From positions 248,001 through 312,000 of the forward strand of contig NZ_JAGKTL010000004.1 of the NCBI RefSeq assembly GCF_017908595.1: DNA of 64,000 bases, given 5' to 3'. The notes under the pieces are model-generated. The model worked only from the letters and a program-made list of their open reading frames with translations, ran no database searches and had not been told where the DNA came from. The position numbers and the translations under genes are program-made. Source of the stretch: Rhodothermus bifroesti. Lineage in GTDB: Bacteria; Bacteroidota; Rhodothermia; Rhodothermales; Rhodothermaceae. Below, piece by piece: positions 60 through 20,509 of the stretch; the stretch's first letter is position 1, and each line of letters begins with the position of its first letter.

Positions 60-788
60 ATGCTGCTTCGTCTCCAAAACGCTGCTGCTTCGATGACCGA
101 GGCCTTGCGCCAGCAAGAACGGTTGGCCAACAATTTGGCCAACGTCAACACGGTTGGCTACAAACAAGAACGCTTTTTTGTGGAAGCCCTAAATGAACAA
201 CTGGACCTGGAACGGGCACCCCGCAGCGACCGCCGTCTTGCTCAATGGAATGAGCTCACGCAAGGTCCCTTAGAACCTACCGGCAACCCGCTCGACGTCG
301 CCATCGAAGGCGAAGGGTTTTTTGTGGTCACCGACGAAACAACCGGGGCCACCTTCTACACCCGCTCTGGACAATTTATGCTCGACACTGAAGGGGTGCT
401 GAGAACTATCGATGGCCTATTGGTTGAAGGTCAAAACGGCCCTATCCGCCTTTCACCCCTTGAGCAGCGCCAGCCCCTTTCCATCAGTCAAGACGGAGTG
501 GTTCGTGCCGGAGAGCGCGAAATCGACCGCCTGCAGCTTGTACGCTTTGCCCACCCCGAAGCCCTATTCCGCGTGACAGGGGCTCGCTTCGAGGCTGCCG
601 GCCAAACACCAGAACCCCTCGAAAATCCACGCCTACGTCCTGGATTTCTCGAAGGCAGCAACGTCAACCCTGTGCTCGCCATGACCGAAATGATCGAGCA
701 CTTTCATCGATTTGAAACCCAGCAAAAAGTCATTCAAACGACCGACCAACTGCTGGGACAAATTACCCGTGACCTTGGCAAATTCTAA
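60..788 (+). CDS. flgF: Flagellar basal-body rod protein FlgF-like
   Basis: Proximal rod protein of the flagellar basal body, placed in the periplasm by the flagellar export apparatus. The 242-aa product has the N-terminal signature shared by rod/hook proteins, NNLANVNTVGYK at about residues 24-35, and the C-terminal heptad helix that pairs with it (last 35 residues). The middle carries a FlgF/FlgG-type beta domain (GEGFFVVTD around residue 84). It is first of a run flgF-flgG-flgA-flgH-flgI with 18-nt or shorter gaps except where noted, so it is co-transcribed. FlgF is preferred over FlgG because the next gene is a better FlgG and the order flgF-flgG is standard. The upstream 59 bases are too short to identify the preceding gene. 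Confidence 0.9.
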   Translation: MLLRLQNAAASMTEALRQQERLANNLANVNTVGYKQERFFVEALNEQLDLERAPRSDRRLAQWNELTQGPLEPTGNPLDVAIEGEGFFVVTDETTGATFYTRSGQFMLDTEGVLRTIDGLLVEGQNGPIRLSPLEQRQPLSISQDGVVRAGEREIDRLQLVRFAHPEALFRVTGARFEAAGQTPEPLENPRLRPGFLEGSNVNPVLAMTEMIEHFHRFETQQKVIQTTDQLLGQITRDLGKF

Positions 789-13685: not shown

Positions 13686-14117
13686 ATGCATACCTTTCGA
13701 GGTGAGCTCATTATTGTAGGTGACCGGGTGCTAATTGAACCTGAAGAAGGCGAGCGCCAGACCAAAACCGGTCTATACCTTCCTGCCACGGTAGTAGAGC
13801 ACGAACGCGTAGGGACGGGGCGTGTCATCAAAGTAGGACCGGGCTATCTGATGCCCAATCCTGAGTACTCTGAAAGCGAACCCTGGGCCCCTAATCGGGA
13901 AGCGGTTCGCTACCTACCACTTCAAGCCCAGCCCGGTGACTATGCTTTCTTCCTCAAGAAAGATGCCATTGAGCTGACTTACGAAAACCGCAACTACGTC
14001 ATCGTCCCTCATAATGCTATTCTAGCCCTGGTACGCCCCAGTGCGGAAGACCTTCTGGAAAAGCTCGAAAAGCTGGACGATTTAGATGACCTGGAAGATC
14101 TGCTCGGCAATGCTTAA
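13686..14117 (+). CDS. GroES-like co-chaperonin with acidic tail
   Basis: 143-aa protein with the GroES fold: IIVGDRVLIEPEEGERQTKT then GLYLPATVVEHERVGTGRVI, matching strand-loop-strand and the chaperonin-binding mobile loop. It is about 45 aa longer than GroES, with an insertion in the middle (YLMPNPEYSESEPWAPNREA) and a Leu/Asp/Glu-rich C-terminal helix (EKLDDLDDLEDLL). No groEL is next to it, so it is likely a second co-chaperonin or a GroES-fold protein with its own role rather than the housekeeping groES. Its stop overlaps the convergent kinase gene by 4 nt. Confidence 0.75.
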   Translation: MHTFRGELIIVGDRVLIEPEEGERQTKTGLYLPATVVEHERVGTGRVIKVGPGYLMPNPEYSESEPWAPNREAVRYLPLQAQPGDYAFFLKKDAIELTYENRNYVIVPHNAILALVRPSAEDLLEKLEKLDDLDDLEDLLGNA

Positions 14118-15919
14118 AGCTGTTGCCACCAGCGATGGGTATCCTCAACAGCAGGTAGTGGCCGGTTATTTGGACCTACAGGCATTGGCGTAGGCGCAGG
14201 AGCCCCTTCTAAACGTGGCAGCGAACGCAAACGCAGTAGATAGGCCAGATATTTTCTGAAACTCACGTTTGGCAATGCGGCCAAACGCTTGCGCAGTTGA
14301 TCTAGTTCGGTTTGTTGGGCCTGCATTTTTTCGCGAATGCGCTGCATTTCTTCCTCAAAGCGCGCTAACCGGTGCTGCACGTAGTGCGCTAGACGGAGCG
14401 CTTCGGCGGGCGACAACTGATCGGGCAATTCCTCTTGATAGCGTGCTACCAGGGCTGCACGCCACAGGTTTACCCGTGCCCGCGTTTCATCGCTCAGCTG
14501 GCGGGCTTTGGCCACACGCTCTGGCGTAGCCTGATAGGCATTCCGAATACCAGCTGCTTTGAGGCGAATGACCACCTTGTGCGAAAGGCCTTCAAAGCTG
14601 GCTGCTTCGTCAATAAAATGATACTTCAAGCGATCCCGAAGTGCTGCTTCTTGCAACTCGCGTAAGCGGGCTTGCTGCAGCTGCTGTTGCTGGGCCAGAA
14701 ACGCCTTTCGCTCCTGGTCAAGACGGGTAAGCTGGCGTTCTAGATCGCTCAGCAGACGTACAAAAAAGGCTTGTTCGCGTTGAAGGCGGCGCCGGCGTCG
14801 CACCACGGCGTTACGTTGGTAGCGATAGGCTGCCAGTCCCAACCCCCCAAGCACGCCAACACCCCAAAAGCTTACACCAAGCCATAGTCTTATGCCAAAA
14901 CCAACCGCTCCAGACAAGGCACTCCAACCTAAAAGCGCTGGTAAAAACGCACGTTCAACCCCAACGCGTGCGGCTGTAGTAGCGCTTGGCCGATGCTTTC
15001 GCTGACGTGAAAGTCGAACTACAGGGGCCCCGTGCTGCACCTGCTGCAGTGAAGGCACTTGCCTGGGTTCCAGGTGGCATGCGTGACGGAGTGCAGCGGC
15101 TAAAGGTCGCACAGGTTCCAGCGTTAGGAGCTCCTGAAAAAGGGGTGAGCGATCTGGGGCATAAAAATCATGAGCCCGAAACAACAGCGCTTCTTCACCG
15201 CCGTAGCGTTCCCAAAGATCAGGCCGATAGCGCAGCGCTTGAAGGGCTGTAAAGATAACCAACGCAGGAAAACGGTCAATCCAGGGACCGTAATCTGTTT
15301 CACTCCGATCCGGATGCTGATAGTTACGGTGTCCTAGCTCGGGGCTTCTGCGCCTGTGCAGTGCTGGTACGTAAACAGCATCGTAGTCAATTAGCGTTAA
15401 GCGAGGCTGCCCGGCTTCCAGGCTAACCAGCACATTTCCATGCTGCAGGTCTCCATGCGCCACTTCGGCTGTTTCGAGCTGCTGAAGGAGCGCTACCCAA
15501 GCCTGAGCAAGCTGTTCAAGCACTGTGGGCTCAGCCAGGTGCTCAGCGACAAACCGGTTGAGCGGCACGCCTTCTACCCACGCCATCTTAAGCACGGGAT
15601 AGCGCTGTCCTTCTAGCTGTATGCCTTCGGGCAGAAACGTAAACGGGACAAAGGGCAATGTTGGGTGGTGTTTGAGCTGCTGGGCTAGGGCTCGGTAGCG
15701 GACTTCTAGATCGGCTACTGGTGCATGGAAGCATCGCACGGCCCACCGTTGGGTACGCGCACGGAGCACAAAAACCGTGGCAAAGGCACCGCTTATGACC
15801 CGAGGTAGTCCCAGCGCGTCCACTTCAGGCGTGGCTTGCTGCAGCTCGGGGTCTAAAAAGGCGGCCTGCGGCCATTGTACCGCCTCACGATATTGGCTTG
15901 GGGTAGGATAGCACGGCAT
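14114..15919 (-). CDS. YegI-like protein kinase with helix-hairpin-helix region
   Basis: Predicted Ser/Thr kinase, 601 aa from the ATG at 15919 (17 nt after the phosphatase stop); a TTG at 15952 would overlap the phosphatase and is less likely. Kinase features: SGAFATVF glycine loop, WAVRCF at the beta-3 position (Arg where most kinases have Lys), HGDLQHGN catalytic loop at about 155-162 and LIDYDAVYVP for the DFG region, then ELGHRNYQHPDR. These are the motifs of the E. coli YegI family. Then come hydrophobic segments, a long Gln/Arg-rich coiled coil, an HhH-like GLSHKVVIRLKAAGI segment and a second coiled coil. Last gene of the vWA-PP2C-kinase triad. Confidence 0.85.
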   Translation of the reverse strand: MPCYPTPSQYREAVQWPQAAFLDPELQQATPEVDALGLPRVISGAFATVFVLRARTQRWAVRCFHAPVADLEVRYRALAQQLKHHPTLPFVPFTFLPEGIQLEGQRYPVLKMAWVEGVPLNRFVAEHLAEPTVLEQLAQAWVALLQQLETAEVAHGDLQHGNVLVSLEAGQPRLTLIDYDAVYVPALHRRRSPELGHRNYQHPDRSETDYGPWIDRFPALVIFTALQALRYRPDLWERYGGEEALLFRAHDFYAPDRSPLFQELLTLEPVRPLAAALRHACHLEPRQVPSLQQVQHGAPVVRLSRQRKHRPSATTAARVGVERAFLPALLGWSALSGAVGFGIRLWLGVSFWGVGVLGGLGLAAYRYQRNAVVRRRRRLQREQAFFVRLLSDLERQLTRLDQERKAFLAQQQQLQQARLRELQEAALRDRLKYHFIDEAASFEGLSHKVVIRLKAAGIRNAYQATPERVAKARQLSDETRARVNLWRAALVARYQEELPDQLSPAEALRLAHYVQHRLARFEEEMQRIREKMQAQQTELDQLRKRLAALPNVSFRKYLAYLLRLRSLPRLEGAPAPTPMPVGPNNRPLPAVEDTHRWWQQL

Positions 15920-15936
15920 GACAGCCTGCACGCTTC

Positions 15937-16629
15937 CTAGGATTCTAGACAAAAAATCACTACCGCTGTCACATCGTCGTTACGCAGCGTCCGATGCTGG
16001 CGAGCCGTTCGCAACTGGGCTGCCAATTCAACCGAAGTCAACCTGAGCGGCAATGTTGGATCAAAGCGCAGCAGCCAAGCAGCCAAAGCATCCGTTGCTA
16101 AAATAAACGCATCGCCTGGCCTCCAGCGTCCTTTGAGGACAACTGCAGCTGCATCGACGTTTGCCTGACTACTAATCAGGGCTGGGCGCTGGCTAAACTG
16201 ATCGGGGTGGCTTAGCGGCCAAGCTTGGAGCAACTGTTCTTGCCGCAAATGGAACAAAACCGCATCGCCAACAGCTACGGCCTGCCAGTTACCATTAGCT
16301 TGGAGCCCCAAGCCCAGTAGTGCTGCACACGCGCCTTCATCTAGCTTGGCCGCCAAGTACCAGGGAAGTGGGGCAATGGGCAAGTTTTTCTCCCAGCCAG
16401 CACGCCACTTAGGAAGACAGGTATTCAAATCCTCGAGCGTCAAGGGTAACTCTTGACAGAAGCTTTGCGCAAGATAACGCGCCCAGCTTCCGGCAAATGC
16501 CGTCTCGGTTGCACCATCCGACACCGCAGCGGCAAAAGGCCATCCTGGACGCACGGCAAACGCATCTTCGTAAGCCGAGCTTTCAGCTTCGGTGCGCGGC
16601 ATCCAGAACGTCCAAACCAGAGGGAACAT
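15937..16629 (-). CDS. PP2C-family Ser/Thr phosphatase (YegK-like)
   Basis: 230-aa cytosolic PP2C-type phosphatase. The metal-binding motifs are in order: YEDAFAV (about 20-26), AVSDGATE (36-42 region), ACAALLGL, AVGDAVLF, LATDALAAWLL and RNDDVTAVVI near the C-terminus. It resembles the short PP2C found with YegI-type kinases. It should reverse phosphorylation by the kinase encoded downstream. It lies 6 nt after the vWA gene, so the three genes form one transcript. Confidence 0.88.
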   Translation of the reverse strand: MFPLVWTFWMPRTEAESSAYEDAFAVRPGWPFAAAVSDGATETAFAGSWARYLAQSFCQELPLTLEDLNTCLPKWRAGWEKNLPIAPLPWYLAAKLDEGACAALLGLGLQANGNWQAVAVGDAVLFHLRQEQLLQAWPLSHPDQFSQRPALISSQANVDAAAVVLKGRWRPGDAFILATDALAAWLLRFDPTLPLRLTSVELAAQLRTARQHRTLRNDDVTAVVIFCLES

Positions 16630-16635
16630 AACGCT

Positions 16636-17499
16636 TCAGCGCAAGGTGCTGGGACGCGTACCAATCTCCAGAAAATGCACTAGGGCCACCGGATCGGCAT
16701 TAAACACGAATCCTCGCGTGTCCATGGTCACCCGGTAGCCCTCTTGCTCAGCTGCAGCGCGCATGGTAAAGGGCAGCGTGCTGGACATTTGGAAAAGCTG
16801 AAGGGCATAGGTATCGCGCGGCAAGGCATCGACGCTATCGGGGAGCATCAAGGGCGGTTCTTCAGAAGAAGAAAGGTGCACGTTAAAAAGTAGCGTCTCC
16901 CCATCGTCGGTGGCAAAGCTGCGCAGCTGCTGTGCGTAGCGCAACGGATCGCCATCGGTTGCTTCGCCATCGGTGATGTTGATCACGATAGGCGGAAAGC
17001 TACTGGGGTGCACGTCGATCCAGGTGCGTACCATTTGAGCAGCCAGGTCAAGCGCTTGGCACATGGGCGTACCGTTTTTGGCGTAAGGATCGAACCAGAC
17101 AGGAAACTTAACGCGCCGCTCCGTCCACCCCCCTTGGCCATCGGGCACTTTTTTTAATCGTTCCTCTAAGCGGAGGGGGCGCTCAGCCAGATGGCTGAGA
17201 GGCACCCAGTCACCGACGATCCGATAGTCTTCCGCGGGTCGAATGAGCGGCTGCACGCGTTCGCCATAGCCCACCACCCCTACGTAGAAATAGTCGCGCA
17301 CGCCGTCTTCTTTGGCGCAGCGCAGGATCAGGTTTTGAAGTAGCCGATTGACCACATCCGCTAGTACGCGTGCCTTGCTTGGTGCAGCATCGCCTCGCTG
17401 CTCAGCGCCCCCAAAGGGTTCTTGCATCGAAGCCGATTGATCCAGCAAAAACAAGATCGCAGCCGGCGTGCTGCGGCTGATCTCTGCAGAATAGGCCAT
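16636..17499 (-). CDS. TerY/YegL-like vWA domain protein
   Basis: 287-aa von Willebrand factor A domain protein with an intact MIDAS: LLDQSASM supplies Asp20, Ser22 and Ser24, NGTPMCQAL gives Thr144 and ITDGEATDGD gives Asp177. No signal peptide or membrane segment, so a cytosolic TerY/YegL type rather than a batA-like membrane type. In the TerY-P module described in the literature, such a vWA protein is encoded with a PP2C phosphatase and a YegI-like kinase, exactly the order here; it probably acts as metal-dependent scaffold or substrate. First gene of the triad, 59 nt after the TPR gene. Confidence 0.88.
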   Translation of the reverse strand: MAYSAEISRSTPAAILFLLDQSASMQEPFGGAEQRGDAAPSKARVLADVVNRLLQNLILRCAKEDGVRDYFYVGVVGYGERVQPLIRPAEDYRIVGDWVPLSHLAERPLRLEERLKKVPDGQGGWTERRVKFPVWFDPYAKNGTPMCQALDLAAQMVRTWIDVHPSSFPPIVINITDGEATDGDPLRYAQQLRSFATDDGETLLFNVHLSSSEEPPLMLPDSVDALPRDTYALQLFQMSSTLPFTMRAAAEQEGYRVTMDTRGFVFNADPVALVHFLEIGTRPSTLR

Positions 17500-17558
17500 G
17501 GCAGGTTGTAGGATGCTCGTTTAAGGCAGGGATAGAACGAAGCGGGGGTAGAAGGGGT

Positions 17559-18332
17559 TCAGCGGAGGCGGCGCAAAAGCGCTTGGGCCTCAGCTTGGTA
17601 GAGGGAATCGTTCGGCTCGCTAGGAGACAAGGCAAGCGCGCGCTCTAGCGCGCGCCGTGCTGCTTCAGGCTGCTTCAAGCGGAGCAGCGTACGTCCCAGC
17701 TCTAGATAGTGTACCACGCGTGGTTTGAGTGTCAGTGCTTGCCGAAAGTCTGCAGCCGCCTGCTCTAGCGAAGCCCGCGGTAGCCCTCCATAGACCACTT
17801 TAACGATTGCACGTTCCAGGGCACTCAGTGTAGCCACCTCGTAATACCAGCGGCCACGCAGGTGGTATGCAATGTCGTTTTGGGGGTCCAGGAACAGAGC
17901 GCGATCGATATAGGCTTTGATTTGGCGAGCGTGCTCGACTTTGGCCTGGGGATGGGAAACCAAAGCCAGCCGACCGGCAGCAATTGCCGCAGCCACATAG
18001 GCACGGCTGTTGAGCGAGTCAAGCGCAATCGCTGCTTGTGCATCAGCCAGGGCAGCTTGGTACCATTGGCGCTGTTGCGCTTTCTCTGAAGCTCGAAGGC
18101 CCTGCTCAACGCGCAGACGGGATCGGCGCCAGAGCCACTCAGCGCGATCATGCTCATACTGCAGCCCAGCTTCCACCACTTCAAGGGCTTTGGCAAATGC
18201 CCCAGCCTGCCACAAGCTATCGGCTTGGTACAGCCTAATCGAGGAAGAGGCAGATTGACCTAACGAGGCTACAGCGCTCACGATCGCAACGGCCAGTCCA
18301 ACGAGCAGCTGGCCTAGGGCTGCTGCGTTCAC
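17559..18332 (-). CDS. RMDN-like TPR protein with signal peptide
   Basis: 257 aa from the GTG at 18332, one base after the PSP1 stop; the frame extends upstream but only within the PSP1 gene. It starts with a signal peptide or anchor (hydrophobic to about residue 22) followed by TPR helices. The C-terminal half resembles the eukaryotic 'regulator of microtubule dynamics' (RMDN/FAM82) repeat domain: LDPQNDIAYHLRGRWYYEVA, VYGGLPRASLEQAAADFRQA and HYLELGRTLLRL. Bacterial members have no known function. Co-directional with the vWA-PP2C-kinase genes and possibly their extracytoplasmic sensor, which is inference. Confidence 0.75.
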   Translation of the reverse strand: MNAAALGQLLVGLAVAIVSAVASLGQSASSSIRLYQADSLWQAGAFAKALEVVEAGLQYEHDRAEWLWRRSRLRVEQGLRASEKAQQRQWYQAALADAQAAIALDSLNSRAYVAAAIAAGRLALVSHPQAKVEHARQIKAYIDRALFLDPQNDIAYHLRGRWYYEVATLSALERAIVKVVYGGLPRASLEQAAADFRQALTLKPRVVHYLELGRTLLRLKQPEAARRALERALALSPSEPNDSLYQAEAQALLRRLR

Positions 18333-18333
18333 G

Positions 18334-19269
18334 TTACGCCTGCATTGGCGGTCGGAGATAAGGCTGCACCTCCTCCAGCGACAGGTCTTCCCAGGTCCCA
18401 TCTTCGTATTGAATCCAAACGCGGCGTTTGAAAATATCCAGTTTTTGGACAGTGCCGCGTCCACGTTCTGTTTCCACCGGGGTATCTACAGGAGGATAAT
18501 CCCGCAGCGCTTCCATGTACTGTTCGAGCTCGTAGTTAAGGCAGCACTTCAGCCGGCCACATTGGCCGCTTAAACGCGAAGGGTTCAAGGGGAGGTTTTG
18601 CACTTTAGCTGCCTGGGTGGCTACTGGTTTAAACGTATGCAGCCAGGTAGCGCAGCAGAGCTCACGACCGCAAGAGCCAATACCCCCGACGCGGGCTGCT
18701 TCGTCGCGGGCGCCGATTTGACGCAGCTCTACGCGGGTGCGAAACGTTCGTGCTAGATCGCGCACCAGCTGTCGAAAATCAACCCGGTGATCGGCGGTGA
18801 AGTAAAAGGTGATCTTTTTATGATCAAACTGCCATTCGGCATCAACGAGCTTCATGGGCAGCTCAAGGCGTTCTATCGCCTCGCGGGCCACATAGAAGGC
18901 CTCAATTTCCTGCTGTTTATTGGCCTCCCAGCGTTCAATGTCTTCCAGTGTAGCCAGGCGAACGATACGGGGAAATTCAGCTTCCTCATCCAGTCCCTGT
19001 GCACGCACGCGAAGCCGAACCAGCTCGCCGGTCAGGTGCACGATGCCAAAGTGCAAGCCGCGATCGGCTTCCACGATCACATAGTCCCCTGCTTGCAGTT
19101 CTAGTCGATCGGCATTCCGGTAGAGCCCTTTACGCCTACCTTTAAAGCGTACTTCCACAATGTCGTAGGTAGGCTGTGGGCCGTAGAGATGGCCTAGCCA
19201 GTCGAATACGTGTAGCGACGGGCAATCTCCGCCACAACCGCGTGAAGTGCATCCGCTGCTGCAGGCCAT
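18334..19269 (-). CDS. PSP1 domain protein (RicT/YaaT-like)
   Basis: PSP1-family protein of 311 aa from the ATG at 19269; longer frames overlap holB, and this start gives the Cys-rich opening common in the phylum (CSSGCTSRGCGGDC). The hallmark double-cysteine motifs are present, GSCGRELCCATW and SGQCGRLKCCLNYE, plus the ADHRVDFRQLVRDLA core. In Bacillus the homologue RicT/YaaT sits in an Fe-S containing complex affecting RNase Y and phosphorelay; whether that applies here is unknown. rny is present in this window. Adjacency to holB is conserved in many bacteria. Confidence 0.88.
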   Translation of the reverse strand: MACSSGCTSRGCGGDCPSLHVFDWLGHLYGPQPTYDIVEVRFKGRRKGLYRNADRLELQAGDYVIVEADRGLHFGIVHLTGELVRLRVRAQGLDEEAEFPRIVRLATLEDIERWEANKQQEIEAFYVAREAIERLELPMKLVDAEWQFDHKKITFYFTADHRVDFRQLVRDLARTFRTRVELRQIGARDEAARVGGIGSCGRELCCATWLHTFKPVATQAAKVQNLPLNPSRLSGQCGRLKCCLNYELEQYMEALRDYPPVDTPVETERGRGTVQKLDIFKRRVWIQYEDGTWEDLSLEEVQPYLRPPMQA

Positions 19270-19333: not shown

Positions 19334-20509
19334 CTAGGCCAATCCGAGCACCCAAGGGTCATCCAGCGCCATGAGAAGCCGCTCTGGGGCTTTTCCACGC
19401 ATGGCCTCTTGGAGGCCAGCGGCTAAGACGCTAAGCACCAGCAGCGGTTGGACATTGCGCTCAATGAGCACTATGGCTTCCTCAAGAAGACGCACCATAC
19501 CTTCTAAATCGGCTTGAGGTAAGTTTTGACAAAAGCGCGCAATGGCTTCGCGTTGATCAATGTTGATTAGCGGTGCGTTTTCCCCAAGTGTGCGATAAAA
19601 GACCAAGTCACGTACCCAGCTTAGCATAAGCCGCAAAAGGCCTTTGAGCCGTTCCCTGCCCAGTTCAGCTAGTGCCTCGAGCTGTTCGATCAGCGCTTCA
19701 CTGTGAAAACGATAAGCTTGCCGGAAGAAATCCAGGGCCTGTTGACGATCGGCCTGAAGCACTTCGTTGGCCAGCAGATCCAGCGCACGGCTGTAGGAGC
19801 CATCGGCCATGCGGGCCAGCACCTGTGCCTGCTGCTCGGGCACCCCCTGGTGCAAAACCAACGCTTGGGCAATCACGTCGGCGGGCAAAGGATCAAAACG
19901 TAAGGCTTGGCAGCGGGAACGAATCGTTGGCAGCAGCAGCTCCGGCCGTTCTGTAGTGAGCACAAAAACCGTTTGGGGTGTCGGCTCCTCGAGTAATTTC
20001 AAAAAGGCATTTGCGGCCTCAACGCGCATGCGATCGGCGTCGACCAAAATGGCTACTTTGTAGCGCCCTTCAAGCGGCTTGAACCCCATAGTGCGCCGCA
20101 ATGCTTCGTTAATACGGGCCACAGTGTAGAAAGCCTGTTTGCTAGGCGTCTTGGTAGGATCGTCGAGTACAGGCCGGCGCATGTAGTCTACCGTAGCATA
20201 GGGCTCAACGGCCAAGCGGGCCAAACGTTCGTGCAGATCCTCCGGATCAGCATCGCTAGGATAGGGCAGCAGCACCTGCACGTCGGGGTGAATCAAGCGC
20301 TGCACCTTGGTGCAGCTAACGCATTGGCCACAGGGGGCACTACCGTTTTGCTCACATTCCAGCGCCTGCGCCAACTTTAGGGCTACCGCCCGCTTTCCTG
20401 TTCCATAAGGACCGTAAAATAGGTAAGCATGGGCGATGCGATGGCTTTCCAATGCCCGGCGCAGCGCTTCAACTACACGTGCTTGTCCCAGAATCTGCTC
20501 CCAAGCCAT
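19334..20509 (-). CDS. holB: DNA polymerase III delta' subunit
   Basis: Clamp-loader subunit, 391 aa from the ATG at 20509 (a GTG two codons upstream is unlikely). N-terminal AAA+ domain: WEQILGQARVVEAL, Walker-like GPYGTGKRA, a four-cysteine zinc module (CEQNGSAPCGQCVSC), ILVDADRMRVEAANAFLKLL and TIRSRCQALRF sensor region. The C-terminal collar domain follows. Delta' rather than DnaX because it is short and lacks the extended tau/gamma C-terminus. Heads the minus-strand operon holB-PSP1-TPR-vWA-PP2C-kinase. Confidence 0.9.
   Translation of the reverse strand: MAWEQILGQARVVEALRRALESHRIAHAYLFYGPYGTGKRAVALKLAQALECEQNGSAPCGQCVSCTKVQRLIHPDVQVLLPYPSDADPEDLHERLARLAVEPYATVDYMRRPVLDDPTKTPSKQAFYTVARINEALRRTMGFKPLEGRYKVAILVDADRMRVEAANAFLKLLEEPTPQTVFVLTTERPELLLPTIRSRCQALRFDPLPADVIAQALVLHQGVPEQQAQVLARMADGSYSRALDLLANEVLQADRQQALDFFRQAYRFHSEALIEQLEALAELGRERLKGLLRLMLSWVRDLVFYRTLGENAPLINIDQREAIARFCQNLPQADLEGMVRLLEEAIVLIERNVQPLLVLSVLAAGLQEAMRGKAPERLLMALDDPWVLGLA

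Follow-up and report, generated by a model that had tools for sequence, protein, structure and literature searches.

Organisation of the locus

The analysed window is a stretch of 64,000 nucleotides from a Rhodothermus bifroesti contig (NZ_JAGKTL010000004.1). It contains four minus-strand genes between a PSP1-domain gene and a convergent Cpn10-like gene (Table 1). Three of these form a triad encoding a vWA protein, a PP2C-type phosphatase and a Hanks-type kinase, and the fourth, upstream of the triad, encodes a TPR protein. The gaps are 17 nt between kinase and PP2C, 6 nt between PP2C and vWA, and 59 nt between vWA and TPR. The stop codon of the PSP1 gene is 1 nt from the GTG of the TPR gene, and the kinase gene and the Cpn10-like gene overlap at their ends by 4 nt. 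Scans found 5 promoter-like sequences (2.5 expected) and 13 terminator-like sequences (8.2 expected), none of which lies between the four genes. A preliminary description of this DNA had the three triad genes adjoining on the minus strand, 6 and 17 nt apart and placed after holB and PSP1, and the coordinates agree with it on both points.

Table 1. Genes and protein regions of the triad locus and its borders (positions in the window).
Feature	Position	Strand	Product details	Evidence
Cpn10-like gene, downstream border	13686..14117	+	Convergent with the kinase gene	Pfam Cpn10, E 5.9e-13
Kinase gene	14114..15919	-	601 aa from ATG at 15919	PADLOC STK_OB, E 3.6e-86, kinase half only
Kinase protein regions	residues 1-300; 320-369; about 438-497; 504-548		Hanks-type domain (1-300); predicted TM hairpin (320-369); coiled coil; HhH (about 438-497); coiled coil (504-548); C-terminal WW motif	
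PP2C-type Ser/Thr phosphatase	15937..16629	-	230 aa	Pfam PP2C_2, E 4.2e-7 (above cut-off); PADLOC PP2C, E 3.1e-26
TerY-like vWA protein	16636..17499	-	287 aa, complete MIDAS	PADLOC TerY, E 5.4e-94, full model
RMDN/PTPIP51-like TPR protein, predicted exported	17559..18332	-	257 aa, GTG start, N-terminal hydrophobic segment	Pfam RMD1-3, E 3.8e-12
PSP1-domain protein, upstream border of the cassette site	18334..19227	-		Pfam PSP1, E 1.5e-36
DNA polymerase III delta'-like subunit (holB), upstream anchor	19334..20509	-	Present in 40/40 relatives	Name from the preliminary description and the sequence

The order vWA-PP2C-kinase on one strand is kept in 56 of 58 complete loci. The motifs that had been described as intact are invariant across the family: the MIDAS residues D20, S22, S24, T144 and D177 in 62/62 vWA sequences, the metal residues D22, D38, D180, D218 and D219 in 59/59 PP2C sequences, and the kinase residues H155, D157, N162 and D178 in 55/55 sequences. 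The conserved gene order together with these invariant motifs is far beyond chance.

Conservation of the vWA protein

Of the proteins in the block, the vWA protein changes least across Rhodothermales. Its median identity across the order is 76.7%, compared with 70.1% for PSP1 and 62% for the EF-G homologue (three sequences only), whereas the kinase, PP2C and TPR proteins reach 46.3%, 43.3% and 41.2%, respectively. Within the genus the vWA protein has 90.6% identity and the kinase 66.5%. No match to the vWA protein is found among PDB sequences. The slow change of this protein beside a fast-changing kinase and phosphatase suggests that it may contact a partner that itself hardly changes. Such slow evolution is unlike that of a fast-evolving defence sensor.

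The kinase: membrane hairpin, tail and ATP site

The AlphaFold2 model of the kinase (mean pLDDT 83, pTM 0.51) consists, in order, of the kinase domain, two hydrophobic helices (residues 320-342 and 345-369), a long coil, the HhH region and a second long coil. Foldseek ranks PknB (1mru) first, with an E-value of 1.2e-6, and the search against PDB sequences returns a sub-threshold match only. The pair of hydrophobic helices is basic on both flanks, which is consistent with a TM hairpin that is likely to leave both the kinase domain and the tail in the cytoplasm. Five triads (L083, L086, L087, L118 and L120), from MAGs of Rokubacteria, Gemmatimonadetes and, in one case, a betaproteobacterium, have a kinase of only about 350 aa without any tail.

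The position of the VAIK lysine, R62 in R. bifroesti, is Arg in 38/55 sequences and Lys in 17/55. Helix C has no conserved acidic residue, R74 and Y75 being invariant there instead, and the DFG motif is DYD throughout the family. Judged from the invariant catalytic residues on the one hand and from R62, the missing helix-C Glu and DYD on the other, kinase activity is likely but not certain. The preliminary description was right about the intact kinase loop; it overlooked the Arg at the ATP-binding Lys position and a tail that differs from the defence type. If the kinase were an inactive scaffold, the vWA-PP2C pair would be the working part of the module, and the three departures from the canonical ATP site speak for such a reading. 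The invariance of D157, N162 and D178, the interchange of K and R at position 62 and the behaviour of E. coli YegI all argue against it, and we consider it very improbable. YegI lacks conserved motifs according to the title of a 2020 paper cited in PMC13232886, and as reported in PMC13232886 it still autophosphorylates.

The RMDN-like TPR protein

The TPR protein matches the Pfam family RMD1-3 (PF21033) with 46.4 bits, where the cut-off is 26.7, and it matches the PDB sequence 7cc7 (E 5e-13). Its AlphaFold2 model (pLDDT 92) also has 7cc7 as top Foldseek match (E 1.8e-10), with a bacterial sterol transporter high in the ranking. These sequence and fold matches bear out the RMDN-like label given earlier to the exported TPR protein encoded ahead of the triad. 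The TPR domain of PTPIP51/RMDN3, which the Rhodothermus protein resembles in fold and sequence, binds and transfers phospholipid (PMC11881430); the Rhodothermus protein differs in being bacterial and predicted to be exported. The hydrophobic N-terminus is retained in relatives and, read by eye, often finishes in an AxA-like motif, which supports the predicted export.

The TPR gene is found beside the triad in Rhodothermus (7/7) and Salinibacter (3/3), at a distance of 59 to 485 nt from the vWA gene, and in eight further loci. It is missing at the triad sites of five other lineages and beside the relocated triad of Roseithermus. The seven empty sites all lack it too, and none is seen next to the triad among the loci compared outside Rhodothermales. 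The linkage that was to be checked is therefore real but optional inside two or three clades, several MAG lineages among them, and much of it can be put down to common descent. In three MAG loci (L065, L066 and L068) the TPR gene is tandem-duplicated upstream of the triad, with two copies in each. In another MAG a DUF2147 gene occupies the place of the TPR gene (L076:5178-5657).

The phospholipid binding and transfer reported for the PTPIP51 TPR domain led us to consider a relay for envelope or lipid stress, in which the exported TPR protein would sense lipid or envelope damage and signal to the membrane-hairpin kinase. The linkage to the triad and the absence of the TPR gene from empty sites fit this relay, as do the best fold match to a phospholipid-binding domain, the high rank of the sterol transporter and the predicted TM hairpin of the kinase. 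It is harder to reconcile with the six triads that do without a TPR gene and with a distribution that follows clades, so that the linkage may equal shared ancestry, and the predicted hairpin leaves a very short periplasmic loop. We regard such a relay as unlikely. A fuller version, in which a resident, non-defence branch of TerY-P connects a lipid-binding exported TPR protein through the membrane-hairpin kinase to a possibly nucleic-acid-binding HhH tail, would amount to a relay from envelope to genome and is similarly doubtful. No description of an envelope-to-genome phosphorylation relay was found in the literature examined.

Site and history of the triad

The triad lies beside holB, which may be followed by PSP1 and the TPR gene, and/or beside the convergent cpn10-like gene, with the order kept, in Rhodothermus, Salinibacter, Longimonas, one further genome (G016) and several MAGs. 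Seven genomes have an empty site. Six of them have 6-121 nt between PSP1 and cpn10; in the seventh (G009) holB directly meets cpn10. The triad of Roseithermus has been relocated away from the holB/cpn10 site. A distant triad (vWA 52%, kinase 36%) is present at another locus in G011 and G024 (L057 and L059), and G024 has both kinds. In two loci (family f14, L139:6605-8240 and L140:7298-8927) an unrelated ORF of ~530 aa fills the gap between holB and cpn10, and there is no triad.

Mapped on a host tree of holB, PSP1, EF-G and cpn10, the presence of the triad requires 5 changes, compared with a mean of 11.6 for shuffled data. The Rhodothermales copies form one clade in the triad-protein tree (100% support), and its Rhodothermus and Salinibacter groups match those of the host-gene tree; both are quick trees made without bootstrap, with an unsure root. 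The simplest history is one gain in the ancestor of Rhodothermus and Salinibacter followed by vertical descent and about four losses, the root being unsure. Given these losses the module is dispensable, and an essential housekeeping role is unlikely. The suggestion of a different, housekeeping use can be kept in part: the fixed syntenic site and vertical inheritance make a stable, non-tellurite role probable, but the losses speak against an essential one.

In the rest of the phylum the triad is almost missing; in all, 12 of 296 genomes have it. Distant relatives are scattered among Chloroflexi, Bacillota, Gemmatimonadetes, Rokubacteria, archaea and others, a distribution that makes ancient horizontal transfer likely.

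The triad genes are not always contiguous. In other Rhodothermus species (L056:4318-7289, also L061 and L062) an isocitrate lyase gene (aceA) and a gene for an XRE/IrrE-domain regulator split PP2C from the kinase, and tight co-expression is therefore not essential. The R. bifroesti genome contains no isocitrate lyase orthologue, the match being partial at 41%. G010 has, between PP2C and kinase, an opposite-strand gene for a TPR protein whose N-terminal domain is unassigned (L053:3620-5233).

Relationship to TerY-P systems

The assignment to the TerY-P type agrees with the PADLOC models, which are matched by all three proteins. The vWA protein matches TerY with 313 bits over positions 1-277 of 277, the phosphatase matches PP2C with 90 bits, and the kinase matches STK_OB with 288 bits over positions 3-310 of 562. 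No OB-fold C-terminus was found on the Rhodothermus kinase, where the STK_OB match stops at position 310; near full-length STK_OB matches, tail included, occur in Simplicispira, Brevundimonas and a planctomycete. With the match ending there, the Rhodothermus triad is classed from its sequence as TerY-P in the broad sense, not as the OB-tailed type that was assayed against phages.

The TerY-P system behind the PADLOC models is reported to protect against T7-like phages (Gao et al. 2020; PMC7699616). The triad matches these models, and the earlier statement that the signal and targets of such triads are unknown therefore leaves out a tested phenotype. In an anti-phage role, a phage activity would inhibit PP2C or displace the vWA protein, and the unleashed kinase would stop the infected cell. 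Such a mechanism has been suggested for TerY-P, and it has been demonstrated for the kinase-phosphatase toxin-antitoxin module KKP (PMC11341870). The phage phenotype of the family and the patchy, repeatedly lost presence of the triad keep this role in consideration, but it accords poorly with a single fixed chromosomal site amid housekeeping genes and vertical descent, with a kinase tail that lacks the OB fold of the assayed system and with an unusually slow-evolving vWA protein. Clustering of neighbours found no recurring defence genes around the triad in other phyla; the neighbour sets there comprise 3-4 loci each and include an ABC-transporter ATPase, a transporter-like membrane protein, short regulators and others. 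We judge anti-phage defence to be a real but minority possibility.

Two further readings were rejected. We reject a role in tellurite resistance, because TerD (PF02342), the Ter family searched for, is absent from 21/21 genomes (R. bifroesti and 20 relatives), in line with the earlier remark that no ter genes are in view. A mobile element is unsupported, with 0 phage matches and 2 plasmid matches to the triad, both distant.

A proposed resident phosphorylation switch

The sequences show one gene block that joins a kinase, predicted to be anchored in the membrane, to a PP2C phosphatase and a vWA protein with a metal site, and that has descended vertically within Rhodothermales at a fixed site between holB-PSP1 and cpn10. 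We propose, with a probability of roughly 0.55, that the triad is a vertically kept, membrane-anchored TerY-P switch of reversible Ser/Thr phosphorylation for resident stress or envelope signalling, belonging neither to a tellurite system nor, probably, to a mobile defence island. This reading is favoured because of the fixed site, the vertical descent, the slow evolution of the vWA protein and the lack of defence neighbours. The vWA protein would tie kinase and phosphatase, via its metal site, to a strongly conserved partner, and the phosphatase would hold the kinase off. A cue would then release the kinase, which would phosphorylate a target in the cytoplasm and might do so on nucleic acid via the HhH tail. 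Where it is present, the exported RMDN-like TPR protein may add an envelope or lipid input. The module would derive from the same stock as anti-phage TerY-P. The YegI/PphC pair, as reported in PMC13232886, offers a two-enzyme precedent.

Several observations weigh against the switch. Evolution is fast in the kinase and in PP2C (identities of 46% and 43% across the order), the module has been lost about four times on the simplest history, and protection against T7-like phages is on record for a TerY-P member whose tail is different (PMC7699616). In other Rhodothermus species the aceA-regulator pair comes between PP2C and the kinase, and R62 together with the missing helix-C Glu leaves the use of ATP by the kinase unproven.

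Comparison with known systems

The TerY-P system of Gao et al. comprises the same three protein families, with the full-length TerY match and the kinase-domain match to STK_OB (3-310). It differs from the Rhodothermus triad in the kinase tail, where a TM hairpin, a coiled coil and HhH replace the OB fold, and in that the Rhodothermus triad is at a fixed chromosomal site. Related triads of vWA, PP2C and kinase accompany CoCoNuT (McrBC-type) nuclease systems (PMC11090510); their kinase terminates in a zinc ribbon, and nuclease operons lie alongside, neither of which is found at this locus. In KKP (PfkA-PfkB-PfpC) a phosphatase likewise balances kinase activity (PMC11341870), but this prophage-borne system has two kinases and no vWA protein and is an analogue only.

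What is new is the combination of a TerY-P catalytic set with a YegI-like tail, a fixed chromosomal site and an optional RMDN-like partner; HhH-tailed kinases may feature in the 2012 comparative-genomics Ter paper. The triad provides a natural contrast to anti-phage TerY-P, with the same vWA protein, phosphatase and kinase domain, a different kinase tail and clean presence and absence between relatives. Two questions thereby become testable: which partner the vWA protein has, and whether TerY-P began as a defence system or as a physiological switch that was recruited to defence. Should the module prove ordinary, the yeg orthology and the tellurium label are still corrected.

The E. coli YegL-PphC-YegI proteins have the same gene order and the same kinds of domain. 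A profile of the HhH tail finds YegI at E 2.9e-5 against a background of the ORFs of the loci, the reversed YegI sequence giving no match, and a hydrophobic double segment precedes the HhH tail in the YegI sequence as well. In contrast, YegI is not detected with the kinase-domain profile (E 170) or the TM/coiled-coil profile, PphC has no BLAST similarity to the Rhodothermus PP2C, and YegL matches the vWA protein over 48 residues only (E 8e-4 for that pair), so that most of the vWA protein is without detectable similarity. Orthology with the E. coli yeg genes is thereby rejected for the catalytic domains, and of the relationship to yegI-yegK-yegL put forward earlier the shared kinase tail stands, the catalytic domains being only remotely related. 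According to PMC13232886, YegI is located in the membrane and is dephosphorylated by PphC. The Rhodothermus triad may bear on YegI-PphC-YegL, whose kinase tail it has in common.
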